A stretch of 64,000 nucleotides of DNA from Neofusicoccum parvum (taxonomy: Eukaryota; Ascomycota; Dothideomycetes; Botryosphaeriales; Botryosphaeriaceae): NCBI GenBank assembly GCA_020912385.1, contig CP087213.1, positions 2,294,001 through 2,358,000 on the forward strand, read 5' to 3'. Below are positions 2,103 to 60,782 of the stretch, one piece after another. Position 1 is the first letter of the stretch, and every line of letters starts with the position of its first letter. The translations under genes and the position numbers were made by a program. The notes beneath the pieces were generated by a model. It saw nothing but the letters and a program-made list of their open reading frames with translations. It had not been told where the DNA came from and searched no databases.

Positions 2103-3125
2103 GGTTGATGGAGGAGGACTAGGAAAGGGGGATGGAGGGAGAATAGATGGGCGACGCCAGCAGGAAGTCCTGGTATCTAGGAAGATGGGTGAAGCTGGAT
2201 TGGCCCTGCGGCTCTTGGGAGATTGCTTGAGGCGCGCTGCGGCGCAATGGCGAGAAATAAGGCTCTCTTTCTCGAAACTCTGGAGGCCAATTCTGGATCC
2301 GCGACCCTCTTTTCCTCTTCCTTCTCGCTTGCCTCGGGACCGGCCGAAGGAGGCGACGTAATATCTGGAAATGTGTACGTCCGGCGGAGCTTTGGCTGCA
2401 CCGCAGGCGCCGCGGCGCAAGCTGGTGTTTGGGCTCGTCGGCGTCTACATCTGCCTCCGACACGCGTTCCCCGCATTGGCGTTTGGCTACAGAGTCGATG
2501 ACGTATGAAATTTCCTGGTCTTCTCCGCCGCATCTCCGAGCACGAGGCGGGCGTGTTGCCTGGTCTGGTCTTGGAGACCGAGTTTCGGGGCAGGGGGTGG
2601 GGTGCTATGAATCATGCTTCCCTGGATTTCTTTGGTGTTGACTCAAACTGCTTTTAAGAGTTGTGCAGCTCTGGGTTACCCACGGCGTCGCTACCCGGAG
2701 ACCTGGGGTAGATATCATCTTTTGGGAATTACCAGGTGCTCAAGCTATGCACTCCTGAATCAAGGTCTTCTAAGAGCGCTATATCTAAAGCCCCTTGGGG
2801 GCCTCATTTTTCTAACGTGCTATTGTATTCAGACTCGTGGCTCTCTCTACTGCTAGCTAATTCTTTATTGCGATCAGGCAATAACAAGAGCCGGAGGCCC
2901 AGACGTGTCTCGTTGATCGAAAATATCAACGTAGTCTTCAGCTTTACCTTCAACATTTGCAACCACCACATGAACAACCTTCAAATCCGTTCCATATCTC
3001 CACACAATTATTGTGCAATTGATCCATGCAGCAAGTCTGAGGTAATAACTACCAAACTGCGTAGGAGCTCTCTCAATCCCTTCATTCCTTCACCTCCCCA
3101 CCTCACCCAACTCCTCGCCTTCCTC
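2103..3125. other. Intergenic; 5' flank of the CoA transferase
   Basis: About 1 kb between the CoA-transferase start (2102, minus) and the last exon of the cyclase gene. GC-rich up to about 2600, then more AT-rich. I see no convincing gene, tRNA or repeat. Open frames on both strands here lack family features and overlap the presequence-coding strand. Confidence 0.5.
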
Positions 3126-4322
3126 TCAAAAGATCGCAACCGCATTCGGCGGACTCGCCACCCCACCAGGAACCTATATGTTGCACCTCTGTCAACTTCT
3201 CTCCATCTATTTTTCTCTCAACACCAGCAACGAAAAAAAAGAGAAGAAAAAAAAAAGGAGCTCCAAACCACCCACCTTCAACGGCACGCTACTAAAGAAA
3301 AAACTCCACCGCCCCACGCGCGCACACTCCGCCGCCAACCCCTCGAGGTCGAACAGCTCGCCGATGGGCATGCCCCAGCCGGCCAGCAGCCACTCGTGCA
3401 GCACGTGCGCCGGGTCGTGGTGCGGGCCCATGACCGGCCCCCGCTCGAAGCTGGGCGCGTCGCCCGCCACCGCCGCGAACCCGCTGCTCCACAGCCACCG
3501 CAGCACCTCGCGCGACGCCTCCAGCCCGACGAAGTCCGGCGAGGCCCGCGTCGCGATGGCGCGCGTGTCGGCGGCGGAGAGCGTCTTGAGCGCTGTGTCG
3601 ACGCCCGTGCGGAGCAGGAGGATGTCGCCGCGGCGGGGGGTGAGGTTTGTGGAGGCGAGGATGGCGAGGATGTCGGACAGGGGGATGGGGGTTGAGGTGA
3701 AGGGGGAGGGTGGGGTGCGGCCCTGTGCGAGGGACCAGGTGTGGTGGTCGATGAGGATGCCGCGGCCTTGGATGCCGCCGTGGGCGAGCCAGGCTGGGGA
3801 CGGGGGTTAGTTGGGTGGGTTGGAGGGGGTGGGGGGAATGTACCGTCGGTGCCGAGGACGGTGGAGGTCTGGATGGCGGGTTGCTTGTGGCCCATGTAGT
3901 AGCATTTTGCCTTTTGGTTTCCTGGTCGGGGAGTGTCAACGCGGGTGGTTGTTCGGGTGGGAGGGAGGACACGCACCGTAATGGCGGAAGCCGTCCCACT
4001 GCGAGCTGGACTGGGTGTTGAAGTGGACAATGTCGTCGTTCACGCAACGGTCTGCACCTCGCTGCCGGATCTCGTGGTGGAAGGGCTGGCGGTCGAAGCT
4101 GGGGAACGCCGGCTGGTTTAGCGGTAGGTCGAGGGAAATGCGCACGCCGGTCTGGATCTCTTTCGCTGCGGCGGCGACGGTTTCGGGGGTAAGTAAGTTC
4201 AACATGCCCAGCTCGTCCTTATCGCCGAATAGACCCCACGCGTTGCCCGGAGGTCCGTTGGGGTCCAGCGTGAGGGAGTCGAAGTCGGGCAGCTTCGGGA
4301 GGGTGGAATCGGTAAATGCCAT
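3126..4322 (-). CDS. Cyclase-family protein (kynurenine-formamidase-like fold)
   Basis: Member of the cyclase family (PF04199), metal-dependent hydrolases related to bacterial kynurenine formamidase; the substrate of the fungal group is not known to me. Exons 4322-3977, 3921-3844, 3793-3276, 3173-3126; 329 aa. The signature DDIVHFNTQSSSQWDGFRHY (about residues 96-115) matches the fungal group's metal/active-site loop. FVGLEASREVLRWLW and GDAPSFERGP are further family blocks. The end is easy to mis-call: reading through gives a Phe-rich tail encoded by a poly-purine run. However, a GTGGGT donor at 3275 and a TATAG acceptor at 3174 join PLK to VPGGVASPPNAVAIF-stop, the usual ending of these proteins. 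It faces the 2OG oxygenase across a shared promoter. No signal peptide. Confidence 0.85.
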
Positions 4323-4998
4323 GATTGCTGCAGTGTTTCTGGGCGTTGAGTAGTGGCGGCGAAGCTGGGCAGCAGTGATTTAAATGTGACGATGGTCGGG
4401 CGATGCTTCACCGAGCAAAGATGCCCCGCGGTCCCCGCACTGTGACCTCATGTGCACGGTGTGCGTTGTTGAAGACTCGACGGATACTTTTCCGACAGGA
4501 ACGCGTCTTCGCCACGCGCATGTGTAGCTTGCAGTGTGTTGAGCTCGGCGGACATGCATGCATGGAGCATTGGACAGTCCGCGCGGAGTAGCTGCCCGAC
4601 GCCAGGCTGTCGCGTCATCACGTGTGGCGACATGGTGTCTGGAGAGGCCGACGAGGGACGCAAGAGGGCTGCGGTGGTCGAGAGAGTGGGAGGGCGTTTG
4701 ACAGGGTCGGGCCCCTCGCGTACGATTGCCGTGCGGAGCTCTCGCCGGGGCCGACCAATGGCGTCCGGCGGCATCAGTGATAACCACCACTTTTGACCGC
4801 AAGCCGTCTTTTTTCAACCGTCTTGCTTTCATTGACAATGCCATGCCAGCTTTTGAAGTAGATCCAGGCGAGCTCCGACCCGGCACATCTAGGCAGCTGC
4901 ATTCTGGTCAGGCTGAGTGAGTGTATAAAAGGGCGGCATCTGGCGTCGCTGAAGAGTCCATCACATCACGTCTTCTGAAGACATCAACGGCAGCAAGC
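4323..4998. promoter_or_regulatory. Divergent promoter, cyclase / 2OG oxygenase
   Basis: A 676-nt gap between two divergently transcribed start codons. It carries a TATA-like TTTAAAT about 55 nt upstream of the cyclase ATG on the minus strand, and a clear TATA box upstream of the oxygenase. Joint regulation is an inference from the arrangement. Confidence 0.6.
4924..4930 (+). promoter_or_regulatory. TATA box of the 2OG oxygenase gene
   Basis: TATAAAA lies 75 nt upstream of the ATG at 4999. This placement argues that translation starts at 4999 and not at an upstream in-frame codon near 4921, which would lie at the TATA box itself. Confidence 0.6.
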
Positions 4999-6355
4999 AT
5001 GGCTACAGTCACAGTTGAAGCTCCGTCCACCTCCAAGCTCGAGCTGCGCACGGCATTGGGGCCCGTCTACCGCACCGTGCTCAACAAGCCTCCCAGAGAC
5101 TGCACGAACGAGGAGATCCCCATCATCGACCTCTCCCGCCTCTTCTCCGACAGCCTCGAAGACCGCAAGGATCTGGCGAAGGAGGTCTACGCCGCTGCAG
5201 TCGCCAATGGGTTTTTCTACATCAAGAACCACGGCATCCCGGACGAGACCATCGCAGCCGCCAGGGAGCAGGGCCTGAAGTAAGCTCAACCCAATTCGTG
5301 GACAACACGCCGGCAGGGCTAACCCCCACCAGCTTCTTCCACCAGCCGCCAGAGGCCAAAGCCAAAGCCTCGCTCGAGCGGTCCAAGTACTTCAACGGCT
5401 GGCGCAGCGCCTACGGCACGCGCGTCAACGTGGCCGAGTCGTGGGACACGCGCGAGTCCTTCACCTGGCGCTACCGGCCCGAGTACGACCCGTCGCCGAA
5501 GCCACCGCTGGCGCAGGTGCCGGACGAGGTCAAGCCGTTCATCCGCGGCGAGGACTTCGTCTGGGACGAGACGGCGCACCTGGCCGGGTTCAGGGAGGCC
5601 GTGCTGGCGTACTGGTCGGCGTGCATCACGCTGGCCCGCCGGCTGGTCCGCGTGTTCGCGCTGGCCCTCGACCTGCCCGAGGACTACTTCGACACCAGGA
5701 CGACGTATCCGGGCGCCGACGGCGTGCTCAACTGGTACCCGCCGTCGACCGAGGAGGAGGTCAGGAATGATGCCGTGGGGCTGGGGTCGCATACGGACTT
5801 GCAGCTGTTCACCCTCCTCTGGCAGGACCACATTGGCGGGCTTCAGGTGTTGACCAAGGAGGGGCAGTGGATCAAGGCTAAGCCGGTGGAGGGGACCATC
5901 ATCGTCAATATTGGTAAGGGCGGCGCGGTCTCGGACGGCGCGCTGGAGCTGACGTCGGTGCAGGGGACTTTCTCATGAGACTGAGCAACGACATCTTCAA
6001 GTCTAACGTCCATCGGGTGTACAACAGGTCCCGGGAGGAGCGGGTGTCGATGCCATTCTTCTTCGGTAAGCGGATGGCTGTTTTGTGCTCCGATCAGCAG
6101 CTGACAGGCGCGACAGGGCTGAACTTCAACTGCGTCGAGGGTGTCATTCCAACATGCACCAGCGCGGAGAATCCGGCCAAGTACGAGCCAATAAGCTGTG
6201 GAGATGTAAGTCTGATTCTGCAGGACTCCCACCGAGCTCCAACTGACACGGGAGACCAGTGGTGCCAGCTGCGGTTCAAGCAAGAGCGCGACGACTCGAA
6301 CAAGGTGCAGGCCGCGCGGGAAAAGGCACCCAGCGCGGTCGTGGTGCCCATGTGA
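4999..6355 (+). CDS. 2-oxoglutarate/Fe(II)-dependent oxygenase (isopenicillin-N-synthase-like)
   Basis: Soluble non-haem iron oxygenase; substrate unknown. Exons 4999-5279, 5333-5913, 5964-6065, 6117-6205, 6260-6355; 382 aa, normal for the family. The N-terminal DIOX_N part holds IPIIDLSRLF and NGFFYIKNHGIP. The C-terminal catalytic barrel has the iron ligands H247 and D249 (SHTDLQLFTLLWQD), H304 (NVHRVYN) and the 2-oxoglutarate-binding RVS (R314-S316). The conserved NWYPP precedes the first ligand. Homologues occur both in primary metabolism and in secondary-metabolite clusters. The divergent cyclase gene shares the promoter, so the two may act in one small pathway (inference). Confidence 0.9.
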
Positions 6356-36673: not shown

Positions 36674-38965
36674 TCATTGAAAGCAGATGTCGGGTGGAGC
36701 GAATAGGTCACACCATTGCTCGTTAATGTCGGGCCAATAAACGCCACCCATTCCAGTGTCGTTGATTGAAGCCGGCTCAGGTGCTCCGTTCGACATGGTG
36801 TTGTAGTCCACGAACGACCACAGCATGTCCTCCTCCTCGGGCGAGAGAGACACGCCACCCTCCTTACTCACCAGCGGGTGGAAGCTGTAGCCGACCTCGG
36901 CCAGCTGCTTCAGCGCGGTAGCCTGTATTGCAAACACGTCAGCCAGTGGGGTATCCTGGCGAGCGCGAAGGGATCTTGCCAGCGAAGAGGCATTCTTCCA
37001 TCTCTGACCGAGGTTCTCAAGGTAGGTAATGTTCGCGCAGAGCAGGCTGCACGCTTCCGCCTGCGCCTTCTCGTCCCCGGACCCGGTGTACAGGCTGACG
37101 ATGTAGCCGGCGACCATGGCGCAGTAGCCGTAGAATGAGGCCTGGACGAGGCACCCCGCTTCCGTTGCCGCCGTGATGAGCGCCGTCAGCTCTTTGGCGT
37201 GGGTGAACGAGGTGTCGAGGCTGCGGGAAAGGAGGCTGGACGGGTACTCCATCTTGCACTTGCTGGCCCGCTTGCGGAGCAGGAAAGGGTGGTAGAGGAT
37301 GCAGTAGCACAGGTGGAACAGCGCCCGCGAGAAGATGACCGGGCCGATGCGTTGCTGGTCGATCTGGCCGTCCGCTGCAGAATGCTCGGCCACGATGTCG
37401 GGCAGCGGCGTTCGAAGCCGCAGGCATGTCTCGAGATGGATGAGGTCGGATTCGATGACGGCGAGATCCGAACGCGGGTCCCAGGGAGGAATGCCGTTGA
37501 ACGAGTCGGATTGCTGGATCATGTACTGCGCCGCTCTGCTCAGCATGTGCGCCATGACGACGACTTTGGAGAGCGCTGACTGCGGTGCGTCCGCGTCGCC
37601 CGGACGCAGGTGCATGAACTCTTCCAAAGTGATGGTTTTCTCGTGCAATCCGTCTCTCCAAGCAGCCTCACTTTGCGGTAGCTGCAATCGGCAGGAGGAT
37701 TCCAGGATCGAGCATGGCAGATCTCGACCACAGGACGCGAGGCGGTCGAGAAGGAATATTGACCAAAAGACCCGACGACGTTCTTCCTGTAGCTCGGGCG
37801 GTAGGTCTGCTGGTGGAGGTAGCATTAATCGCAAATCTTGGGCTATCCGGATCGCCACTCCGATCTTGACCCATGCTGAGCCATGACGGCTTCTTCCAGC
37901 TGCAGGAAAGCGTTAGAATCCAGTGAACACAACAGCAGTCTTGACGGGAAACACACCAGTGTAGTCAAATATGGCCAGTAGAGTTATGCTTTGAACGGTG
38001 TAGAGGTCGGCAACTTCATGGGATGAGAACTCGGTCGAGACAATAAAGCTCCACGCTAGACTTGCGAATCTTGCTGCAGCCTCGTCCCTATCGTCGCCCC
38101 AAAATGGATCATTTGTGAACCGAATAGTGCTGGCGATGACGGCACACAGTAGGTGATGCGGGATCTCGCCGCTAAGCAATTTCTGTCGGAACGTCTTCTC
38201 GTGGAAAAACGAGTATGGCTGGTTGTGGCAGAATGAGAAATAGGTGTCCACGGCTGCTTGGATGACGGAGGGTGGTAATGAGTTGGCCGGGTTGATGTGC
38301 TCGTCAGATATGTGGGATGCGGTTGGGCTGGGGCCGCTCCGGTGACTGACAGCGGTGTCTGAAGGCGGAAACGTTGTCTGGCTATTCGTCTGGTCCAAAC
38401 TATCCCTCCGGACTGAGACTCCTTGCATCTGAGATATAGGCAGCGAAGCGAGAATTTGCTCCTGCCTTGCGGCAACGCTTCGACACTATCAGTAGTTTGC
38501 TTATTGGTGTTACTTGATTGAAGACGTACAGCTGAGCTTGTTTTTGCAAATCTTGTAGTTTCTCCCCTAGGCTACTGACGATATGGAGGATATTTTCCTG
38601 TGCATTGTAAGCAGCGTGCCAGTCTCGAATGTCGGGCTAGTCCACGAACAATATCAGACTTGGTAGCACACGGATCCGGAGCTGGAGGCGCGGCCGTGGA
38701 CGAGGGATCTTCATATTTGCAGTCTGCTCAATCGTGGTTCAGCGGCACCGGTCTCATTGCAGTGCTGCTCTTCCGGAATTTGCGCACCAATTGAAAGACG
38801 ATGGCAGTTGTTGCATTGAGGCCTTTGGCCACTGCAACGAGCCTTCTTGCGCCTGTGTGGAGAAATCAGAGCTGCACATGTCCGTACAAACGCGGCAACT
38901 CACCTGCAGGATATGCAAGCCTGGCTGATGCGACGGATCGGTCTGTATGATGCGTACGGATCCAT
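36674..38965 (-). CDS. Zn2Cys6 fungal-specific transcription factor
   Basis: Six exons read on the minus strand: 38965-38904, 38852-38788, 38723-38650, 38597-38530, 38477-37957, 37899-36674; 671 aa. The zinc cluster is split by two introns but reassembles perfectly: C17-x2-C20-x6-C27-x6-C34-x2-C37-x6-C44 (ACISCRRKKARCSGQRPQC, NNCHRLSIDCKY). A linker and a heptad-like coiled coil (ILHIVSSLGEKLQDLQKQ) follow. The Fungal_trans domain (PF04082) runs from about 150, with TYFSFCHNQPYSFFHEKTF, HGSAWVKIGVAIRIAQDL and RRRVFWSIFLLDRLASC. Its position beside the nitrilase suggests it regulates the nitrilase / aldoxime dehydratase pair, but this is inferred from context only. Confidence 0.9.
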
Positions 38966-39401: not shown

Positions 39402-40502
39402 TCACTGGGGCTGCCCGGCAGGCTTCTCGCGGAAGTGCACCTGCGTGCCGCCCTCGGTCGTCACGCGGAGGCTGAGCAGGTCGGGCCGGGAGTAGTGGCC
39501 GACGATGTCCAGGTTCTGCTTGCACAGGTCCTTCTCGTGCAGGTCGACGTCGGCGTACAGGATGCCCTCCTCGCCGGGGCCCAGCGGCTTGACCAGCTCG
39601 CGGCCGTCGGGGGCGTAGATCATGCTGAAGCCGCCGCCGGGCGTCTGCGCGTACACGAAGTCCTTGAGGCGGCAGCGGTCGCGGTTCTTCTCGGTCAGGA
39701 TTTGCGACGCGATCATCACGAAGCAGGCGCCCTCGATGGCCATGACCTGCGACAGCCGCTGCGACGCGTCGGGCGTGATGTGCCACGGCCACTTCGCCCA
39801 CCCCTCGTCCGCCGGCACGCCCCAGATCAGCGGCCAGCTCGCCACGTGGATGTCGACGTCCTGCGAGTACTCGTAGTAGCGCAGCAGCGTCTGCGAGTGC
39901 TCCCAGCAGTTGAGCCCGCCCACCTTGCCGAACGGCGTCGGCACCACCGTCTTGAGCGACTCGGCCTGCCCGTCGCCGTAGTACGCGCGCTCCACGTGCG
40001 TGGGCTTGATCTTGCGCCGGTGGTGCACGATGGTGCCGGTCTGGTCGATGAAGGACTGCAGCGCGTCAGCCTGTGTCAGCGTGATCCCGGCTCGCAGGGG
40101 CCCGGCCTACCTGGGCGATGAACAGCGTGCCCCGGTAGCGCTCGCTGTACCCCAGCACCACGAAGATGCCAGCCTCGCGGACCGCGGCGCGGATGCGGTC
40201 CATCTCGTCGGACTCGCGGGCCATGGAGTTCTGGAAGTACTCGTCCATGAACTCCACGTTGGAGACTACCGAATTGGCCCAGATACTCCTGATCCATACT
40301 TAGAGATCCCTTTCCCAGCCCTTCGTCTCGGGGAAACATACCATGGATAGCCGGGAATAAAGACCTCGGGGAAGCCGAGCACGTTCGTGCCGTTGGCAGC
40401 TGCCTCCTGGATGTAGGCAATTGCCTTGTCGACTCCGCCCTGCAGATCATTCCACACTGGTTCGGCCTGGATGGCGGCGATCTTGACGGTCTTGCCAGCC
40501 AT
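39402..40502 (-). CDS. Nitrilase (fungal nitrilase / cyanide-hydratase family)
   Basis: C-N hydrolase expected to convert nitriles to carboxylic acids plus ammonia. Exons 40502-40342, 40288-40111, 40055-39402; 330 aa. The triad is intact: E46 ([13 protein letters not shown]), K128 ([13 protein letters not shown]) and C163 ([20 protein letters not shown]). [13 protein letters not shown] is a further family block. Length fits the short fungal forms. Cyanide hydratases are close relatives, so cyanide as a substrate cannot be excluded. However, the divergent aldoxime dehydratase gene, which makes nitriles, points to an organic nitrile. A TATAAA on the minus strand (40626-40621) is 119 nt upstream of the ATG. 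Confidence 0.92.
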
Positions 40503-40989
40503 TTCGACGGTTCAAGCGGCTTGATCGAAAATTGAAAAGGCTTTTGTGCGAATGAGAGCTCTTGGAGTTGGAGTTGATGGCTGGTGATGGCCTCAGTCAT
40601 GCAGCTCGCTTCGGTCCTGCTTTATACCCATCCTCTTCTATCGTCTCCACGTTCAGGCCGGACCACACCCGGCGGTGCGGTCTCCGCATCCGTGTTCTTT
40701 TCAGGGTTCAGCCTTGACTGCTGCGAGCTGCGGTTCCGATGGTCTGGAAACTGAGGGGTTGCTGACCACTAGTGTAGAGGCCAAGGCCGGTCCGGACGGT
40801 CCGCCAGTAACGTTCACGGACCGCAGCTTTCCTATCACAACACACGAGCGGATGGCGGACCGGCATGATAGAAGAATGTAAGATGACGTTGGTAATACTG
40901 CTGAGTTGGTTTAATTGAAGGGAACTTCCATTTCTGCTCACCTCCACTGCTCCACTTCTCGTTGCGTCTCTTCGCGCTTTGATCCCATC
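40503..40989. promoter_or_regulatory. Divergent promoter, nitrilase / aldoxime dehydratase
   Basis: A 487-nt gap between divergent starts. TATAAA for the nitrilase lies at 40626-40621 (minus). CGG triplets near inverted CCG (for example around 40660-40680 and 40785-40865: CCGGTCCGGACGGTCCG, GCGGATGGCGGACCGG) are the kind of sites Zn2Cys6 regulators bind. That one of them is bound by the neighbouring regulator is speculation. Confidence 0.5.
40621..40626 (-). promoter_or_regulatory. TATA box of the nitrilase gene
   Basis: TATAAA read on the minus strand, 119 nt before the nitrilase ATG. Confidence 0.5.
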
Positions 40990-42099
40990 ATGTTCGCTGC
41001 GTCGATTGCCAAAGAACACCCGGTCGTCTTGTCCATTTTTGGATGCCAGTACCACGGCCCTTCCCCCAGCCCAGCAAAGAAACAACTCATAGACACCTTT
41101 GACAATCTACTCAAGCCATCCGCAGTCCGCGTTGAGACTCTCGAGCACGACAATGCCTCGCCGGCTCCAGGGTCTTCCCGGGTGTGGATGAGCTACTGGA
41201 AGAGCCCCAACGACTACCAGCAGTGGTGGGACGGCGAAAAGGTGTCTCAATTCTGGGCCTCGCTGCCGGCAGACGCAGGGTTCTGGCGCGAGAAGCTCAG
41301 CCTGGCGTCGACGCGGGCCATGTTCGAGACGAACAAGAACACGCCGAACGGCTTCGCGCACGCCGGCTCGCTCGTCGACCTGACCGAGAAGACGGGCTAC
41401 TGGGGCGCCTACCGCGACCGCCTCGACGACGCCACCCCGCAGGACAGGCTCACGTCCCCGCTGAGGGCCGTCCCGCCCCCGACGCCGCGCTCCGCGCGCG
41501 TCAGGAGCGGCAGGGTCGTGATCGACCGCTTCCCGGATAATATGTGCTTCGTCGTCGAGGGCCAGGACCACGCCGCCATGGGCCCCGGCGAGCGCGACCA
41601 CTGGGCCGAGAACTTCGACCTCCTCACCAAGAGCTGGGTCTCGCACGTCGTGAACGCGGGCCCCGAGGCGGGCATGGTGTCGGCGCGGCTGTGCCATGCC
41701 CCGCAGAGCGGGAGGGTGGAAGGCGGGTCCGGCGGCACCGCAGAGGACCAGGGGTGGGCGCAGGCTTTCGACTTCAACAGGAAGGTGCAGATCCTTTACT
41801 TCCTGGACATGTCGTACATGGAGCGCATCGGCAAATCGACAAAGACCCACGTTGATCTGAGGAGGAAGTTTATGCAGTCGTACGCGCCGACCGGGCCAAT
41901 GGCGAACGGCGACTTGCTTTTGTGGGTGGAGTTGGCCGTGTTGAAGGCGCAGGATGTCGAGGCTGAGTATATTGGCTGCTATGAGGGCACTGGCTTCATG
42001 GCTTACGAAGAGCATCCCTCCTTCCAGAAAGAAGCAGTTGGAGGATTCTGGTCTCCTTGGAGCATGATTACAAGAGCCTCTCAGTACGTGTTTGGCTAA
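40990..42099 (+). CDS. Haem-containing aldoxime dehydratase (Oxd family); 5' end may be incomplete
   Basis: Haem lyase that dehydrates aldoximes to nitriles. The single visible exon from the ATG at 40990 gives 369 aa. Family blocks: VVLSIFGCQYHGP, SYWKSPNDYQQWW, the GYWGAYRDR motif, VVIDRFPDNMCFVVEGQD, LYFLDMSYMERIGK followed by TKTHVDLRRKFM (H287, likely the catalytic distal His), and EAEYIGCYEGTGFMAYEE. The in-frame codons just upstream of the ATG read ISAHLHCSTSRCVSSRFDPI, resembling the family's N-terminus (AxxEHLxCPR-type). No ATG precedes them before a stop, so an upstream exon may exist that I cannot place. The divergent nitrilase would use its product. Confidence 0.85.
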   Translation: MFAASIAKEHPVVLSIFGCQYHGPSPSPAKKQLIDTFDNLLKPSAVRVETLEHDNASPAPGSSRVWMSYWKSPNDYQQWWDGEKVSQFWASLPADAGFWREKLSLASTRAMFETNKNTPNGFAHAGSLVDLTEKTGYWGAYRDRLDDATPQDRLTSPLRAVPPPTPRSARVRSGRVVIDRFPDNMCFVVEGQDHAAMGPGERDHWAENFDLLTKSWVSHVVNAGPEAGMVSARLCHAPQSGRVEGGSGGTAEDQGWAQAFDFNRKVQILYFLDMSYMERIGKSTKTHVDLRRKFMQSYAPTGPMANGDLLLWVELAVLKAQDVEAEYIGCYEGTGFMAYEEHPSFQKEAVGGFWSPWSMITRASQYVFG

Positions 42100-50095: not shown

Positions 50096-53000
50096 TCATT
50101 GCTCTGGGTACAAATTCGGATTGAGCTCGACCGCCATCCACACATCGACGTCCGGCCCATCGCCTGCCTGCCACTTGTGCCACGGATAGGCAATGACCTT
50201 GTTCGGGCGCCTGATCGGACGGCCGTAGCTGTCGCGCTCCCACATGCCGCCATGCTCCTGCAACGGCTGCAGCTCGAGGCGGTCAAACGCGTCATCCGGA
50301 AGCTTGAGAATCTCCTCTTCCGGGAGCTCGGAGTACTCGGCCTTCAGCTGGGCCATGCCGCCGGTTTTCGTGCCGGCTGAGAGCGAGACGTGCAGTTCCG
50401 CAAAGATGTCGTGGCTGTGGTTGTGGACGCCGCAGTTGACACCAGTGCCTGAAGTTGTTAGCAGGAACATTTAAGTGGACGGGATAGGGTGTCTCAGGTA
50501 CCTGCAGTCCAGAATTGAATGTGGCCGATTGGGACTTTGTCCTCCAGGAAGCGGAAATGGAACCCGGAAAGGTTGGTGAAATCAACTCCCTTGAAACTCT
50601 GTCCCCAGGACAAATCTTCGACTTTGACGAATTCCAGGGGCTTGAGCGAAAGACCTTGACGAGAGACGTCAAATGTCGCCTCGACAGGAACGTCTGCAGC
50701 TGTTCGCCAGGTCTCAGCGCCAGCCTTGCCGGGCGTGGGCTTGAGACGCAGAAAGATTGCCCCTTTCGCTTTGTCGGCGTTGGCTTGGGTGAGAGCTGAG
50801 GCCGTGTTGAATGATGTAAATGGTTTGACTGAGAATGGCTGCCTCACGTCCTGCGCTTGGCCACTGGCATCATTGAATGTGAGTGAGCCGTACAGAACCT
50901 TAATGCCCTCTCCGGCTGCGACGTCAATATTCTGGTAACCCTTCGGTGCGATCTCCACGCTTATCTCGAAATTGGCCACGTTGATCAGTTTCATGGATTC
51001 GGGCTGCAAGACATGTCGATCGGCATCTATGCCGGGCTTCAATGTGTCTTTGTTGGAGTACAGTGCAGGGTTGCGGAGGTAGACAATGCCCTCATTCTCC
51101 CACAGGCTGGGCACGATGGAGTTGAGGGTTTCGATGTTGTCCCTCGGGGCAAACTCGTTCAAGTGAAGAGTGACAACTGGGCTTGGTTCGGTGTAGTAGA
51201 GCGGCACGTTGTACCAAATGGACACAAAGTCCAGGCGACCGGTATTCGAAAAGTCTCTGGTCGTTGCGTCAGCATCCACCGTGAATACGATCCGAGTCGG
51301 AGACAAACCCAACGGCAATGCGTGCAGACGATTCCGGCGACACTCGCCACCGGGCGAAGATGCCGTTCTCCAAGTCGACAGCCTTGTAGTACATGATTCC
51401 CTACGAAGGGTGTTAGCAGATGGATGATGCTAGAAGTTGGCTGTTTCATCTGACCTTGTTTGGATCTGGTCCAGCGGGTGGCTGTGACAGCTGTCAGTGT
51501 GCGCACGCACGTCTCATGTCATTGGTACGAACATCAATCGGCTTTCCGTCTTTGTCATATTCGGCTGGACCGAAGATGGATACGAGGAATTCATCCTCGC
51601 CATCACCTACGTAGAGTTTTAGCTTGTCGTAGTGGGCTGTGGGGGAACGGAGCTCTATCACCCACCGTCGAAGTCTCCGCACACCACATAATGCAACGGG
51701 CCATCGCCGTACTTCATCTGTTGAGTCGGAGTGCCGAAGACATCGAGTACATGTCTCTTCCACTGGTTGCTGCCAAGTCCCCGGCCAACTTTGGTGTAAA
51801 CACAAACCGTGGTGCCGTGGAATGGATCGACTGTGGCGATGTATGCGAACGGGTCTCCGCCAACGGAGCCTGCATCAGCACCACCGGTACCCCAGTGATC
51901 TCCCGATCCAGGGCTCAGGCTGTTCGTCAGTTGTCTTGGCTCTCTTGGTTCTCCAATACCAATGAGTTCCCTCTTCCACACGCCGTCTTGGTGGTAGAGA
52001 TGAGTGAGGCCCTCTCGGGACGACACAAGCATCGAATCGAGGCCGTCCGGACCCCCGAATCTTCTGAGGTTAGCTCAGTTCACCATTCGTGGTTGAGTTA
52101 GACTTTACTTTTTCTGAGTCACTTCATGGATGATTGTGAAGTGCTCGTCGTCAATGATATCGCGAGGCCACTCGGCGCTGACGGACTATCAGAGAATACT
52201 TAACGATATTTCCAGGAATACCTACGCGTCAAGGACTTTCTCCGGGGCCTGGAATCGGATGATTGGAATTGGGGTCGCCTATGCATTTGGATTAGTAAAA
52301 AGGGTGCGCCAACCATCCCATCCCTGCTCTTACCTTGTCTTCAGGTGCGCAGACAACGGACGCAGCAACGACCTCGAGATAAGATCTGTAAACGGTGAGC
52401 GAGGTGTTGTCTTGGATTGTGTGTACTAACTTCTGAGTGAAGTGGCCTGCCTTCAGCCTGTGCATTGCAGGCCACCTGCCGATGAACCTCTCCTTCCAAT
52501 GGCGTGTCGTTCCATCCTGGTTCTTGAGGTCGTCCCTCCCTGGGTTCTCCAGCCAGCTGATTGTGCCTCCAATTGGGTTGCAGTGCAGCATGTGTGGACC
52601 GTAGTCGTGACAGATGATAACATCATTCAAGCCGTTTCCAGTGATATCGGCTGAAACAATGGCTACAGGGGAGTCGAACTTTGCGATTTCGTGTTTCTCC
52701 CATGGCACTGTGGCAGTTAGAGACTGTTTGACGATAAACTGGTAATGCTCCACCGGACGTACCGTCTTTCAGGGCCTCATTTCCGCTCTTGCCCTTGTAC
52801 GCGGCAGTCGCAAGAGGGTTCTCGAGGAAGGAAATGACCCCAGAGGCGAGCCCAGAGCTTGAAAGACCTGTAGTGTCAGAGCCGAGGCAAACTTGAGCAT
52901 GGCAAGGCTTTCACAGACGTTATGATACCAGGGACAGGGTCATCGGTGTGGAACTTGAAGCGCTCTACCCAATACCCATCACTTCGATTGCCCTCAATGA

Positions 53001-53118
53001 CAGAAGAGGAGAATGACGGCTCCAGTATAGGAACGTGCTTGGAGGGACTGCTGCTGTTTTTCCCGGTCATGATTGAGGTTCGGTTTGTGGACATCGTTTG
53101 GGTTGCAGAGTAGGACAT
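50096..53118 (-). CDS. Aldos-2-ulose dehydratase / anhydrofructose dehydratase
   Basis: Bifunctional lyase/isomerase family known from Phanerochaete; converts 1,5-anhydrofructose or glucosone into pyrones such as microthecin or cortalcerone. Twelve exons: 53118-52929, 52867-52763, 52707-52431, 52385-52334, 52278-52226, 52177-52109, 52063-51666, 51606-51533, 51481-51455, 51400-51309, 51256-50502, 50448-50096; 814 aa. An N-terminal FG-GAP/propeller part has SDGYWVERFKFHTDD, SADITGNGLNDVIICHDYG, GGTISWLENPGR, MHRLKAGHFTQ and CGDFDGDGEDEFLVS. The C-terminal half is cupin-like (HIQFWTAGTGVNCGVHNHSHD, metal-type His cluster). No signal peptide. Exon 9 is a 27-nt microexon (PPAGPDPNK). The least certain junction is intron 1. 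Divergent from the glucan lyase, the enzyme that makes anhydrofructose. Confidence 0.88.
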
Positions 53119-54426
53119 CAGTTAAATTCAATTTCAGGAGTCATCTTCCGGCCTAATCATTCCAATAACACCCCCAAGCCCCTAGGGTGTGCGATCTCGT
53201 TCCCAACGACATGTGGATTGAGCTGCATCACTGCGTCAATTTCGACCCCGTTCCCTTCTTTCGACCGTTTGCAGACGGTCCGCAGGTTTGACAGCTCTCC
53301 CAAGGATTGGGAAAACTCCTGTAGTTGAGTGCATACTCTGGTTCCGATGATAGCTCATGCATAATACGAGGCTTTAGCGACTGGCACCGTGGGTGTGGCA
53401 CGTCCGTGGCGCGTTTCGCTCGCAACTCTGTAGGTGTTGTACGGCCTTGGCGTGCGGGGAACTGGTGGTGCCCGTGATACAAAGGCAGAAAACTAGGTTG
53501 CTTGCATCTTCAACAATACCACGGGTAGGAGCAGATAGATGTTCAGCTGGCAGTGGGCTGGTGGCGCAGGGAGACGGGCTTGCGCATTCCAGCTCCCTGC
53601 ATGAACCCCGCACTTTTTTGGCTTAGTAAATACGGACCATTTCTCTGCCATCACGGCCAGAACTGCCCGCAGGATCGATCGGCTGCATGTGCATCTCCGG
53701 AGCTGCACGTAATATCTTAGGTCGCCCCTTGGCTCGCCGTCTCGTTCTTGACGGCGGCCTTGGAATTCCGGCGATCCTTGATTGCTGCTGCGCGCTAGTC
53801 CTATACTCATGTGGCATACGCGCACTAGTGGAACTAGTAGGTGCATTGTACGATTTGGACAGAATGTGCGGGCCGTCCCGCTCGATGCGGTGCTGCTGAA
53901 GATCAGAGGAGTTGAGCTCCGCACGGCTGCCGCTCATATCAATGACACGCCACATGCGCCCTGTCCGACCCTCCCTTGTCCCCCCCAATCCGCGAGCGGA
54001 CATGTAGGCTGACGCCTGTGCCAAGACGGCTGCTTGTGGGAAAGTCCGTAGCTGCATCCATTCCTCAGACTAAAGCGCAAAGCCGCTTTCCGTCCGTGCA
54101 TGAGTGCGACCATCACCACTAACTGCATATATTGATCTCTCCTTCGTTCCCCATTGTGAGGCGCAGGATTCCCCGCTTCGTGTCTCCTTCCCCGCTACTC
54201 CTCTTTCTCAACGCCTCCTTGTGAGTTATTTTTCCGAGTTGATTGACGGAATAAGCTGCTTGCAGCTTCATCACGCATGGTACTCGTATCCGTTGCATAT
54301 CGAGATATCCAAATTAACGGGCTTTGCCACCGGCTGAGGAGCCACGGTGGATATATATCAATGAGCGCTTAGACCGTCCGACGTGATTTTCAACAAACAT
54401 CTTTTTCTCTTGCGCTTTCACTCAAC
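53119..54426. promoter_or_regulatory. Divergent promoter, aldos-2-ulose dehydratase / glucan lyase
   Basis: A 1.3-kb gap, long for this window. A TATATAT box at 54352-54358 lies about 75 nt before the lyase ATG. No convincing gene in between; several small frames lack family features. Confidence 0.5.
54352..54358 (+). promoter_or_regulatory. TATA box of the glucan lyase gene
   Basis: TATATAT, about 75 nt upstream of the ATG at 54427, followed by a short leader. Confidence 0.5.
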
Positions 54427-57400
54427 ATGCCTTGGACAGGGACTGACAAGACGTGGGAGACTGGTGATGGGGACCACCCCAAACACCGTGATCCCTACCG
54501 ATTCATTCCTGCCGATGACTTCTTCGAGTCTCTTTCTAATCCTGCCTCTGGAACCAAGCAGCCAGACTCCATCGCGTTCGATCCTGAAGACCAGCTCGAT
54601 GTGAATAGAAAGCCGAACAAAGCTTGCGATCATGGTCGGATCTTCCGTCTCAACACTGGCGGTGTTCTCCTCATCCAGTTCATGCGGCCGCTTGTGTGGA
54701 GAATCAGATTCAACCCGCATTATGCTGCAGGCCATCAATTCACCGACTTCAATACGTAAACACAGAGCTCCCCCCTGCTCAATCCAAAGAGATCTGTAAC
54801 CTAATTTCATTGCAGGAGAACCATCATTCAAGGCAGGCTCCAGAAGATGATCTCGATCCTGGACAAAGCAGAGGGTATCAACTGGTCTGTCAAGTTTGAC
54901 GATAAGAACCCGCGCTACTTCACCCTTGACTCGGTGATCAAGCGTCCAGATGGTTCAGAGACTCTCGGAGTACGGCTGTGGATCCAACGCAACCCATTCC
55001 GGATCACAGCCACGCGGAAGATCAGGACTGCCGACGCTCTGAACATTTCCGAGAAAGATGAGGAGGATCTTCCAATTCCAGTCGGTGCGCCGGCACCGTC
55101 TGGGGATGCGATCATCTGGCAGACCAAGAAGAAACCATTGCAGTACCAGACCGACGCCACTGTCCTTGCGGTGGAGAAGCCAGATCCAGCCAAGTTCCTG
55201 GGCTTTGGCGAGCAAGGCGGAAAGCATCTTTTCAAAGAGAGCACCTACATGAACTACTTCAGTGTGTCACACCATGCTGGGAGCCCCATCGGTGGCCGTG
55301 CTGATTACCTTCTTTTAAGATTTCGACAACATGCGTTACAACAACGTTTACGGCAGAGGCCCCAATGAAGATGCGGAGCCGCTGTACCATTCTGGTACGC
55401 GTGTATACATCCCCCGTGACGTCGCTTTGCTGAAATTTCAAAGAGCCGTACTGGATCGAGGTCAATGCGCATCCCGGATACATGTCCCAGCTGGCAACAT
55501 TCATCGACAACTACTCGCACGTCTGCGTCGACCTCGGCAAGACAAACACCACTCAAGTTCGTATGGCCACACGCTTCAACAGCTTCCAAGGGATATTTAT
55601 CGCCGGAAATGATATCGCGGAAGTCATCAGGCTGTACTCATCGCTGATTGGGCGCCCACGGCTAATGCCGCGATATGTTCTTGGCAACCATCAAGGCTGC
55701 TACGGCTATGATACTCAAGGCCGAGTTGAGCAGGCAGTGCAGAAGTACCGTGACTACGACTTTCCCTTGGACGGCATGCACATTGATGTTGATATGCAAC
55801 GGGACTACCGCACCTTCACCATCGACAAGAGTGACTGGAAGTTCCCGAACCCCGAGAAGATGTTCTTGGAGCTGAGGAAGAAGGGTGTTAAGTGCAGCAC
55901 CAACATCACCCCTGTCATCAACTCGAGGGCCGACAGCGAGTACACTACCCTCAACGACGGCCTGGCCAAGAATCACTTCGTCCTCGACCGTCGTAACATT
56001 GACCCGTCTGCTCCGAACCCGTGGGACCAGCGCTACATGCAATTCGGTGGTTCTGTTCTGTATTACACAAGGCCATTTGACGTCAACGCTCGCCAATACT
56101 ACCCAGAGCGGGATCTGCATGACTTCAACCAAGTCTTCAATCAAGCTAACCGTGGTGAACCTTTCCACGGGGGTGTGTCTTACGGTAACGGGCAGGGCGC
56201 CCCAGGGTACTACCCAAACCTCAACAACAAAGAAACTCGAACGTGGTGGGGAGAACAGTACAAGTATCTCTTTGAGACCGGACTGGAATTCGTGTGGCAG
56301 GACATGACCTCGCCATGCATGGCCGAGCAGTACGGAGACATGAAATCGTAAGTCATCACAAGCCCATACCGCTTGGTCTCACTAATGATAACCGATGATT
56401 TTAGATGGCCTTTCCGGCTCTTGATCGATTCCGACGGCTGGCCTGGCGAGTCCAGAGATCTGACTGCAGCAGCCGAAGCCTCGGGAGGGCAATTCCTCTA
56501 CGACCCGGAGAAGAACAAGTACAAGATGGCCATTGAGATCTGGTCCTTGTACAGCTACAACCTGCACAAAGCAACTTTCAAGGGCCTAAAGGAGCTGGAG
56601 TGCCGCAAGGGCAAGCGCAACTTCATCATCGGCCGCGGCAGCTACGCTGGTGCTCAACGGTATGCTGGTCTCTGGACTGGCGACAATGCATCAACCTGGG
56701 ACTTCTTGGGCATCTCGGTCTCCCAAGTCATTGGCCTTGGCCTTGCTGGGGTTACGGTTGCTGGAGCTGATGTCGGAGGCTTCGAGCCTCCTGAGGGTGA
56801 TCTCACAGCTTTTGCCGACCCAGAGCTACTCATCCGCTGGTACTGCGCATACAGTCTTCTACCGTGGTTCCGGTGAGTCATTCTGTCTTCGATTCTGTAA
56901 TTCAACTCTAACAGGTCACAGAAATCACTACAGCGGAAAGCACAGTGGTCAGGAACAGCGCGACAAGAGCAAAAAGGACTTCCAGGTTGGTCTTTGCCAC
57001 CTCCGTAAAGGATTCCACATGCTGACTTTTACAGGAACCATACCGATACCACGAATGGTACCAGGGAAATGCACACATCGTTCAAGGCGACAACGATCAC
57101 AGGATGTACCAGTCTGTCTTGCCAGTTACTCGATACTTCATCCGGCTCCGATACAGTCTTCTACAACTGATGTACGATGCTATGTTTGATAACATGCTGA
57201 CTGGGTTGCCCATTGCGAGGTCTCTTGTAGGTTCAAAGCTCTACTGAAGATTTGACCCATATTAACATTCTACCAGGTCATCACCGACCCCTTGGATGGT
57301 TCTCTCTTCTCTAGGGTAAGAGAACAGTCTCACTTCTTCTTGACCTTGTCTGACCACATCTGCAGCACGAATGGGCCAATCAAAGTCAATACATGGTTCG

Positions 57401-58500
57401 AAATGACTTGCTGGTTGCCCCGTCCTTGAGCAGGGAACGTGATTACGCTCGGCGTGAGGTATACCTCCCTGCAACCAGCTCTTGGTATCCGATGAATCTC
57501 CGCCCGTACGCCGACGATACCTTGGGAGAACCTTTGGCGCCTAGTGCCAGTGGAGGCTCAAACATCTCATATGACTGTCACATTGACCCCCAGGAGAGTC
57601 ACATTCCGTACATTTGTCCAATGTACATTCGCGAGGGTAAGCATCATAGCCACGGTCTGTCTGGATACCTCATGCTGACGTAGTTTTTTTCTTTCAGGAG
57701 CAATCATTCCGCAAATCCAGGTGCGAAACTTCGTACCGGATCGCACACGCCCAGATCTTCCATCAGAGCCCGCGAACCCCATCACCATCAACATCTACCC
57801 CGGAAAGCCATCCGTTAGTCTCCCAAATAACATTGTAAAAGATTCGAAGCTAATATTCATGCGCAGTTCAAGCCCAAGACCTACAAGATGTATCTCGATG
57901 ACGGCGTCTCTCGCAGCAGCGCTCCTGACGGCTTGTACTTATCAAGCCAGCCGCTTGATACGGTTGGCGAGGTACAAACAACACTGAACAACGAATACGG
58001 TGACAAAAAGGCCAAGAGCAACTTCCGACGTGTCGACATCACTCAGGTATGTAGCGCATCATGCTCAGAACAGCACCAATCCGGCATCCCCAAACACAGC
58101 CCAGCATCGTCTCCACGACATTCTCATCTAGAAGCTAATCTCTTCTCTCTTTTCACTGTAGGCCATCTCCGACGAGGACGCCACCGACGGCGTCATCACC
58201 GAGGTCTTCCACCGCAAGATCACCATCTCTACCCCGTGGAAGGGGACGGAGCACGATGACGTGCCGCCCGAGGAGCGGTATGACGACGAGAAAGTGAAGC
58301 GCGACATTGGTGACTCGTACCGCCTCGTCATCTGGCACGAGGCCAACACTGAGCTGTCTCGCGTGTCTGTTGATGTCTCCCCCAAGGGATGCTCGAAGGA
58401 CAGCATCCGCGTGGAGCACGATGGACGCAGGAAGGCGTCAATTGTGTGGGTTCCAACTGGGAAGGATGTCGAGGCTGAGATTGAAGTGAAATATGATTAG
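54427..58500 (+). CDS. Alpha-1,4-glucan lyase (GH31)
   Basis: Cleaves terminal glucose from starch, glycogen or maltosaccharides by elimination, giving 1,5-anhydro-D-fructose. Twelve exons: 54427-54755, 54816-55261, 55320-55394, 55444-56347, 56405-56872, 56922-56985, 57035-57226, 57277-57315, 57366-57636, 57698-57813, 57867-58046, 58162-58500; 1140 aa, slightly longer than known lyases. N-terminal beta domain with YRFIPADDFFESL; barrel with YHSEPYWIEVNAHP, PLDGMHIDVDMQRDYRTF and NITPVINSRADSEY. The nucleophile is D570 in GLEFVWQDMTSP; hydrolytic GH31 enzymes have WxDMNE there, and WQDMT-P is the lyase pattern. The acid/base candidate is D678 (GLWTGDNASTWDF). No signal peptide, as expected for an enzyme acting on glycogen. 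Its divergent neighbour would consume the product. Confidence 0.92.
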
Positions 58501-58805
58501 GAAATCGGGTCTGAAAAACAGGTTTGGACGTCCTTTTCGTAGCTTTGTGCATTTGGCAAGCATTTCTACTCAGTAATGATGATATGAGCTTTCGGCAAGG
58601 GAAGTCAAGCTTAATATTCAAAGCTTCAACGCTCTAGAGCGTATGGCAACCTTTGTATGCTACTTTACTTACGGCAAGGGGTGTTCATCGCAAACTAGCA
58701 ATTATCCAAAAGTGACTCATCAGAAAGGAGCGTCCAAAAACCAGAGTTCAGATAACCGTCGAATGTGTTATTGAACAGGACTGTTAAAGGCGGAGCCGTG
58801 ACAAC
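58501..58805. other. Intergenic between convergent genes
   Basis: About 305 nt between the glucan-lyase stop and the P450 stop. No feature seen. Confidence 0.5.
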
Positions 58806-60782
58806 TTACGGCTTTGGACCCTTCCGCTCATTGAAGCATAAACGCAAAGATGGCACCGTCATTGTGAAGGTATCCAAGAAGCCCTCATCAAATGCCTTAC
58901 CGTCTTCTCCCGGGGCAAGAGTCACATCAAAGCGAGCTGCCACCCGTCCCAAAACACTCTTCATCTCCCAGTAGGCGAGCTGCTTCCCAACGCACATAAA
59001 CGTCCCTGCCACAACTGCATCAGTCACACTCAAACATCAGCGGCGCCCTCCAAACAACTCACCAATCTGAAACGGAAACCAGGCGCGCCTGTCCTTCAAC
59101 ATGCCCGCCTTGTCGCTGCCGGCGACCCACCGCTCCGGAACGAACTCGTTCGGCCGCTCGAAGTACCTCTCGTCCCGGTGCACGACCCACTGCGGAACGA
59201 CGACGTCAACGCCGCCAGGCAGGTACAGGTCGTCGTCGATGCGCAGCCCCTCGGGCGGCGTCTGCCGCGGATTGCCGGACAGGACCGGAGGCTTGAGGCG
59301 CAGCGTCTCGTTGATGACGGCCTCCAGCAGCGGCACGTCTTTGATCTTGTTGTACTCGAACTCGCCGTCCGGCATGGCGTCGTCGACCGCGCGCTGGAGC
59401 TGCGCCTGGGCGTCGGGGTGCGTGGCGAGGTAGTACAGGGCGTTGATCATCGTGCTTGCGGCGGTGTCGCTGGGGAGAGGTCAGCATGGGCGCGGTCACT
59501 TGCAGGGTCGGGGCTGGAGGCAACGTACGCGCCTCCGGTGACGAGCGCGCGCGAGTCCTCGTCTAGGGCGTCTTTGGTCTGCGCTGCTGCGGGGCTCTTC
59601 TCCTCGTACGCTTTCAGGAGCCATGACATGACGTCCTGGGGCGCTTCTGTCTTTTCCTTTCGAAGGGCCTGTGATGTGGAAATTCAGCGCTTGAGATTTG
59701 CTGTGGGATGTCGGGTGGCTCCGAACCTTTTGTCTGTCCAAAACGAGCTGGCTGCAGTACTCGTTGAATGGGGCGATGGCCCCCGAAGCACCTGGCAAAC
59801 TCATCATTATGTTGATGAGCCATGGCACAGGTTTGAGATAGCCAAGCATGACCTGTGCCTGGCGTAGGTTTTGAACGGCAGCGTGCTCCTGCGACGATTT
59901 GAGGTTGCCAAAGTCTCGGCTGTAGCCGATCACGCCCATGAGGTCGTATGACAGCCAATACACCCGCTCCGACACGTCGAATGGCTTGCCCACCTTCGCA
60001 GGCTGGCCAATTTGGTTGAGGAAGACGTCAACAATGGACTGGATATTTGCATTGTATCTGGAGAGCTCTGACGGGAGAGGGATTAGCGGTAGACCCAGAA
60101 TTGCAAAACAGCATTGATTTGAGTGCACCTTTCATGCCCATGGCCTGCTCCCAGGGCCGCCGTCGCTTGCGGTGGTCGTCAAGGTTCCGGGTCGCCACCA
60201 TGCTGACTTTTCTGTAGTCCCGATTTGACTGCTGATAGAATACCGTCTTCGGACACTGCGCCAATGGCTGAAGCGCAGAGACTCGGGCAACGGACAGGTC
60301 GCGTGGGCCTTGTTCGTGGATCAGAACGTTGAAACCACCATATCACTACCCGACATACCTATGCGGACAACATCGCCATGCTTCTCGTGAAGCTGCTGCA
60401 GTTCACGGTGAAACTGTAAGTGCTTGATAGACTTGTACACGGAGTGGAGCCTAGAGACGCGTGCCGCAAAGGGGCCTGGGAATCTGCTCAGCCGATGAAA
60501 GAACGCGCGGTATACGACAATCGATGTAGTGAGGCTGAGCGCAAAGATAGCGGTCGAGGCTGCGAGATCCGACGTGGCACGTGAAAGTGGCTTAGAAAAC
60601 ATTTCAACGTCGACATAGAGGATTCCGGCTCCCGCTGCAACAAAAGCGCCAGCCAAGTACGGAACGACCAAGTCAATCTCAACCATCTGGGCTGCCGCGT
60701 GGAACGCGATGGCCGCAAGAGCTGGTCCGAGCCATTCCGGGGAAGGAATGAGTTTTTGGCTTTCGCGGAGTAGACTCTCCAT
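58806..60782 (-). CDS. Cytochrome P450 monooxygenase
   Basis: ER-bound haem monooxygenase. Exons 60782-60359, 60308-60129, 60067-59727, 59668-59529, 59469-59063, 59005-58806; 563 aa. The N-terminus carries at least two hydrophobic segments (GPALAAIAFHAAAQMV; VVPYLAGAFVAAGAGILY; TAIFALSLTTSIVVYRAFF), then the proline hinge RFPGPFAARV. The I-helix oxygen-binding motif ALVTGGADTAAST spans intron 4. The K-helix ExxR is ETLR in INETLRLKPP, with PERW after it. The haem loop is FQIGTFMCVGKQLA (C502), where the usual Arg of FxxGxRxCxG is Phe. The fold elements are complete. It converges on the glucan lyase with 305 nt between stops, so it may tailor the pyrone or be an accidental neighbour. Confidence 0.9.

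Follow-up and report, generated by a model that had tools for sequence, protein, structure and literature searches.

The subject of this report is a locus in the genome of the ascomycete Neofusicoccum parvum (43,992,428 bases in 18 contigs), found within a stretch of 64,000 nucleotides of contig CP087213.1, which was analyzed as a whole and is referred to below as the window. The locus includes a gene for an aldos-2-ulose dehydratase/isomerase (AUD), located on the contig labelled C8, and a gene for a GH31 protein of the alpha-1,4-glucan lyase type, the two being divergent (head-to-head), and, next to the latter, a cytochrome P450 gene that is convergent (tail-to-tail) with the GH31 gene, across a gap of 305 bp (Table 1). 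These are the three genes that the original prediction, made from the letters of the sequence, had placed at this locus: a GH31 gene, a complete AUD gene head-to-head with it, and a P450 gene following, and all three have been recovered, in the same positions. The gene models for all three have GT-AG introns and no internal stops, with 11 introns of 49-115 nt in the GH31 gene. A frameshift or, alternatively, a 73-nt intron near position 51,300 in the AUD gene was considered and is ruled out by alignment with homologues, which defines a 52-nt intron and a different first intron, leaving the gene intact. The PDB search and the homologue listing for AUD employed a model with two differing splice sites, while the Pfam analysis and the alignment of residues employed the final model.

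Table 1. Features of the N. parvum locus (positions in the window) and of the cyanobacterial locus L040 (positions in L040)
Feature	Location	Strand	Description
AUD (aldos-2-ulose dehydratase/isomerase)	50096..53094	-	12 exons, 806 aa; beta-propeller and cupin domains; splice model
Divergent intergenic region	53095..54426	.	1,332 bp between the start codons of AUD and GH31; candidate shared promoter
Alpha-1,4-glucan lyase-type GH31	54427..58500	+	12 exons, 1,140 aa; nucleophile D570, acid/base candidate D678
Cytochrome P450	58806..60782	-	6 exons, 563 aa; splice model; Pfam PF00067, E 2.4e-60
L040, AUD propeller	907-2292
L040, AUD-like cupin	2299-3036
L040, lyase-type GH31	3125-6154		1,009 aa; VWQDMTTP

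The GH31 Protein as a Predicted Glucan Lyase

The best match to the window GH31 protein in PDB is the alpha-1,4-glucan lyase of the alga Gracilariopsis (2x2h; E 5.7e-48, 166.6 bits), and the best non-lyase match is a maltase-glucoamylase (E 9.9e-39, 136 bits). D570 is part of the motif VWQDMTSP and D678 is part of the motif LWTGDN, both aligning with 2x2h and with the lyase of Morchella vulgaris (Q9UVZ1), which we take to be a characterised lyase, and the string WQDMT is present in both of these lyases. Among the best 120 of the 578 GH31 relatives, 116 possess the pattern [VI]WQDMT.P and one possesses VWQDMASP, the pattern being unmatched in the remaining three. The other GH31 proteins of the N. 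parvum genome that were aligned, representing four of its other GH31 places, possess DMNE, DMSE, or DNNE at the nucleophile. Over the catalytic region, the window GH31 is 54.6% identical to the M. vulgaris lyase, 33.4% identical to 2x2h, and 23.9-27.3% identical to these four hydrolase-type proteins from its own genome. In a phylogenetic tree of 24 rows, the window GH31, the lyases of Morchella and of the alga, and a protein from a cyanobacterium (see below) are split from the hydrolase-type GH31 proteins, these being labelled by motif and not by assay, at 100/99, and the same split was seen at 94/95 in an earlier tree of 24 rows, with own_L005 and 3nuk included and two cyanobacterial rows absent. 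By sequence, the window GH31 is predicted to be an alpha-1,4-glucan lyase, as originally proposed, with the motif, the PDB match, and the tree all placing it with the glucan lyases, and not among the hydrolytic alpha-glucosidases.

The Dehydratase

The AUD protein possesses both of the domains typed by Pfam as AUDH_Cupin (PF18637; E 4.9e-111) and AUDH_beta_propeller (PF22301; E 4.8e-72), each well above the cut-off, and the only PDB sequence it matches at E 0.001 is the Phanerochaete AUD (4a7k; E 1.9e-104). It is 70% identical to a protein from Macrophomina, and its identity to AUD_PHACH is 33% in the homologue listing or 35% over 711 residues in the alignment. Of the 64 homologues aligned, 63 have a letter at the cupin positions, and of these 62 maintain H698, H700, and E707 each, while all 63 maintain H709; D371, D373, D375, and E379 are likewise conserved. 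H173 occupies the alignment position of H155 in the Phanerochaete enzyme, within the motif MHRLKAGHFT, in a column that is over 90% conserved, below the 97% cut used; H155 and two zinc sites are presumably catalytic in the latter. The protein ends at the equivalent of Phanerochaete residue 739, and the 161 residues that follow in the Phanerochaete protein, which we take to be a lectin domain, have no counterpart. With an intact gene model, both AUDH domains, and the match to the Phanerochaete protein, the dehydratase of the window is identified as an AUD, and the prediction of a complete enzyme stands. The AUD gene in the window, beside the lyase gene, is the only place in the N. parvum genome matched by AUDH_Cupin; a search of the genome with PF13517 returned no match, missing even the window AUD, and is thus uninformative.

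Linkage of AUD and Lyase Genes in Ascomycetes

Linkage was surveyed using 75 of 77 AUD rows and 119 of 120 GH31 rows for which a contig was given, the GH31 rows being the best 120 of 578. The rows in both lists are clusters at 90%, each named after one member; contigs of identical size were taken to be the same contig, locus tags were assumed to run along the contig, and linkage was read from the contig sizes and tags of the rows. At least 20 of the 75 AUD rows, representing 19 species, are on the same contig as a GH31 row of the lyase type, with Tricladium varicosporioides contributing two such pairs. Ten of the 20 shared contigs are smaller than 200 kb, and for these, placing the genes at random in a genome of 40 Mb predicts about 0.03 shared contigs in all. 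The remaining ten are larger, up to 5.9 Mb, and present weaker evidence, the random expectation for all 20 being 0.66. Locus tags are available for both members of four pairs, and in every case the AUD and lyase genes are within two genes of each other (OQA88_11656/11655, DL765_009768/009769, Q9195_005162/005161, SLS58_009886/009884). Among the species with both proteins in the listed rows, 19 of 22, as counted by eye from names of which some are truncated, have the pair on one contig. No AUD row from N. parvum is found among the listed AUD relatives, and the N. parvum row among the GH31 relatives is 88% identical to the window GH31, over a shorter protein. The original prediction had suggested a survey of synteny across fungi, naming a pair unlinked and not co-expressed in all relatives as an outcome that would speak against it; what is observed for AUD and the lyase is linkage kept across species, and the two genes can be regarded, as judged from contigs and locus tags, as a conserved two-gene unit in ascomycetes.

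A Proposed Anhydrofructose Pathway and Its Alternatives

To our knowledge, work on the anhydrofructose pathway has dealt mainly with enzymes purified from a few fungi and algae, with little genetics to accompany them. The AUD of Phanerochaete converts anhydrofructose into microthecin via ascopyrone M. We consider it quite probable that the pair described here represents a unit for such a pathway, in which the lyase would produce 1,5-anhydrofructose and AUD would convert it into ascopyrone M/microthecin. The identities of the genes, their orientation, and their linkage are established by the data; from the protein assignments and the gene layout we infer the activities of the enzymes, their shared regulation, their location in the cell, and the product of the pair, as follows. 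The GH31 enzyme would act on the end of glycogen or of a starch-type glucan, cutting it by elimination rather than by hydrolysis and setting free 1,5-anhydro-D-fructose; AUD would remove water from the latter to form ascopyrone M, and isomerisation would then produce microthecin, a small antimicrobial pyrone. The head-to-head layout may allow one promoter region to switch on both genes, and the reactive intermediate may thus be consumed as it is formed. By eye, no hydrophobic N-terminus is seen in the GH31 protein and no signal peptide is seen in either GH31 or AUD, and the source of the substrate is therefore likely internal glycogen. The route from starch or glycogen to a pyrone, as initially proposed for these two genes, is supported, with the chemistry remaining a prediction. 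According to one report, a fungal lyase yields the enol form of anhydrofructose, and fungi convert anhydrofructose to antibacterial ascopyrone and microthecin (PMC12441222).

Some of the observations weigh against this interpretation, or limit its reach. The crystallised algal lyase (2x2h) is distant, with a very long branch, making its exact position in the tree unsure, and the assignment of the window GH31 to the lyase clade leans on the fungal relatives. A second lyase-type GH31 is encoded in the N. parvum genome (G000:C1:2926435-2930236, L038; 46-71% identity by exon; on a short branch of 0.016 beside an N. parvum protein with a zero-length end branch), away from the single AUD, and thus a lyase does not require AUD. 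A pyranose-2-oxidase-like gene is also present (G000:C2:1862898-1864964, L036), with one exon matching pyranose 2-oxidase at E 1e-31, unlinked to AUD (C2 versus C8), and AUD could therefore act on glucosone. Among the relatives, Elsinoe australis, Colletotrichum tofieldiae, and Peziza echinospora possess both proteins on different contigs, which may belong to different assemblies, Jackrogersella and Thelonectria possess an additional AUD on a contig other than that of the lyase, and for 39 of the 59 named AUD rows no GH31 row on the same contig is present among the best 120 of 578, most of the 39 being from species that have no GH31 row among these 120. When six AUD-bearing bacterial genomes were searched with the cyanobacterial lyase described below, a close match was found solely in its own genome, and the lyase-AUD pairing is not general in bacteria. 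In addition, a table of the Morchella secretome includes three GH31 proteins that carry a glucan lyase annotation (PMC8185036), and such lyases may therefore also act outside the cell, contrary to an all-internal location.

The alternatives differ in which of the proteins they reassign. It is very improbable that the window GH31 is a hydrolytic alpha-glucosidase carrying a lyase-like motif by chance: while the fold is common to all GH31 enzymes, many of the relatives are named alpha-glucosidase in the source databases, and the maltase-glucoamylase match in PDB scores 136 bits where the lyase scores 166.6, the residues at the nucleophile are DMT and not DMN or DMS, the split from the hydrolase-type rows is at 100/99, and identity over the catalytic region is 55% with the Morchella lyase versus 24-27% with the hydrolase-type proteins of the same genome. 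It is also quite unlikely that AUD functions mainly in a glucosone route, in which the unlinked pyranose-2-oxidase-like enzyme would make glucosone, AUD would convert it into cortalcerone, and the lyase would be used otherwise, for example in glycogen turnover. Such a route is suggested by the presence of the oxidase-like gene, by the position of the second lyase away from AUD, and by the wood-decay fungi, in which the oxidase gene adjoins that of the dehydratase (PMC4256170). However, in the N. parvum genome no oxidase gene was found adjacent to the dehydratase gene as in that pair (C2 versus C8), no exon of the oxidase-like gene reaches the TIGR02462 cut-off, and the companion of AUD in ascomycetes is the lyase gene.

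The remaining alternative extends the unit to three genes, with the P450 tailoring the pyrone in Neofusicoccum only, and we consider it unlikely. The P450 gene is only 305 bp from the lyase gene, and a P450 is also found near the second lyase (L038:4678-6147), but the latter is only 24% identical to the window P450, the family of the P450 includes, among the listed relatives, seven rows that bear the name N. parvum, and none of the 106 P450 rows shares a contig with any of the 75 AUD or 119 GH31 rows, a comparison outside of which the other Neofusicoccum assemblies lie. The closest relatives of the window P450 are 99% (N. parvum) and 82% identical, in two Neofusicoccum species, followed by proteins at 55% identity or below. 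With no P450 row sharing a contig with AUD or GH31, a role for the P450 in the pathway is unsupported, and it is probably an unrelated local neighbor and not part of the unit; this portion of the original prediction, in which the P450 was a cluster member and a possible tailoring step, found no support. The two-gene anhydrofructose unit is thus the interpretation retained here.

AUD Relatives Outside of Fungi

A scan of bacterial and archaeal genomes identified at least five AUD-like loci, the weakest of them (L044) at E 1e-5. The cyanobacterium Vasconcelosia minhoensis LEGE 07310 (L040:907-6154, NZ_JADEXG010000111.1) possesses three consecutive open reading frames (ORFs) in the order propeller-cupin-lyase, and the lyase shares 39% identity with the window GH31 and 42% with the Morchella lyase. 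The cupin ORF is only weakly similar to fungal AUD, having no Pfam match and BLAST E values of 6e-4 with the window AUD and 4e-7 with the best fungal protein; it was missed by a fungal-AUD profile, though its end motifs resemble those of fungal AUD.

Other bacterial AUD propellers are found in different company. In Nocardiopsis (L043:3043-7365), the propeller is near a pyranose-oxidase-type enzyme, which scores 492 bits against a cut-off of 545, and an inosose-dehydratase-like protein, which scores 229 bits against a cut-off of 290. In genome G364, of the cyanobacterial phylum (L053:160-8513), and in Persicobacter (L067:4426-14848), it is near a GMC enzyme and an inosose-dehydratase-like protein, and in PDB the GMC enzyme of G364 has glucose and fructose dehydrogenases as its matches. 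Another example is the set that recurs in Streptomyces and Paraburkholderia (L041, L042, L066), made up of a berberine bridge enzyme (BBE)-type FAD enzyme, a WecB-type UDP-GlcNAc 2-epimerase, an AUD-like cupin ORF, an AUD propeller ORF, and an acyltransferase, possibly representing an undescribed natural-product pathway. In a survey of three phyla with PF22301, matches above the cut-off were present in 2 of 386, 2 of 396, and 1 of 398 genomes, figures that in every case include the genome on which the survey was centred, with one further match below the cut-off in each of the 386- and 396-genome surveys. The AUD-propeller match in G783 is on a 4.1-kb contig. Four plasmid records match the AUD propeller, including NBC_01022 and a partial match from Sinorhizobium, and a plasmid search with the lyase produced distant GH31 matches in the best 15 of 193 records, while the viral contigs searched for AUD produced no relative.

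Taken jointly, these data raise the possibility, which we put forward tentatively, that AUD represents an ancient and portable module for pyrone formation, which became independently paired with different suppliers of keto-sugars: in Pezizomycotina and a cyanobacterium with glucan lyase; in wood-decay fungi and Nocardiopsis with pyranose oxidase or a similar enzyme; in G364 and Persicobacter with a glucose/fructose-dehydrogenase-like GMC enzyme along with an inosose-dehydratase-like protein; and in Streptomyces and Paraburkholderia with a UDP-GlcNAc 2-epimerase, a berberine-type FAD enzyme, and an acyltransferase. If this is the case, the latter set would represent an undescribed pathway, perhaps for a pyrone derived from an amino sugar.

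Separately, a relative of AUD (P0068; 35% identity, 96% coverage) is found in the bdelloid rotifer Rotaria, on 8 contigs, possibly a horizontal transfer into an animal.

Other Genes in the Vicinity

A major-facilitator transporter is encoded about 3 kb beyond the P450 gene (L034:4017-5559, G000:C8:2358017-2359559; Pfam MFS_1, E 8.9e-29). The P450-like frame near the second lyase belongs to a family other than that of the window P450. Elsewhere in the window, a nitrilase-family frame on the minus strand is divergent from a haem aldoxime-dehydratase-family frame on the plus strand (39402-42099), and these are accompanied by a fungal transcription-factor domain (36674-37912), the three possibly forming an aldoxime-to-acid cluster.

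Comparison with Known Systems

The enzymes themselves are not new, but the linkage of their genes in ascomycetes and in a cyanobacterium appears to be undescribed: in the portions of the open-access literature consulted, with subscription papers outside this scope, no description of a lyase-dehydratase gene pair was found. A linked pair kept in many ascomycetes supplies named genes, and the role of the pathway, be it in defence, stress, or glycogen turnover, becomes testable. The cyanobacterial match, along with the contrast to the oxidase-dehydratase pair, suggests one pyrone-making family with interchangeable suppliers.

As to the individual enzymes, the window AUD is like that of Phanerochaete chrysosporium (4a7k, 4a7y, 4a7z) in combining a propeller with a cupin, in the 35% identity over 711 residues, and in the cupin residues H/H/E/H, and unlike it in missing the last 161 residues. 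The window GH31 is like the lyases of Gracilariopsis (2x2h) and M. vulgaris (Q9UVZ1) in possessing WQDMT and GDN and in falling on the same side of the GH31 tree, and it differs from them in being 33% (alga) and 55% (Morchella) identical over the catalytic region, with its assignment as a lyase made from sequence.

As to the gene pairs, pyranosone dehydratase is presumably a member of the AUD family. A pyranose 2-oxidase is reported to be encoded beside a putative pyranosone dehydratase in Phlebiopsis gigantea, as well as in several wood-decay fungi, in a route to cortalcerone (PMC4256170). The two arrangements are alike in linking a dehydratase with the supplier of a keto-sugar and in having a pyrone antibiotic as the suggested product; they are unlike in that the supplier in wood-decay fungi is an oxidase acting on glucose, toward cortalcerone, whereas in N. 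parvum it would be a lyase acting on a glucan, toward pyrones of the microthecin type. In Morchella importuna, pyranose oxidase and glucan lyase are listed among the genes lower in the sclerotial-initiation sample, at over 1000 fragments per kilobase per million (FPKM; PMC8093252), and thus both of these enzymes can be expressed in one ascomycete.

Among the closest known systems is also the anhydrofructose pathway of glycogen breakdown, of which, according to a title in a reference list, glucan lyase, anhydrofructose dehydratase, and ascopyrone tautomerase have been purified from Anthracobia melaloma (in PMC12441222). Both enzyme classes are shared with N. parvum, as is the proposed flow from glycogen to an antimicrobial pyrone. 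However, while that pathway is represented by purified enzymes, the lyase and AUD genes of N. parvum form one linked unit.

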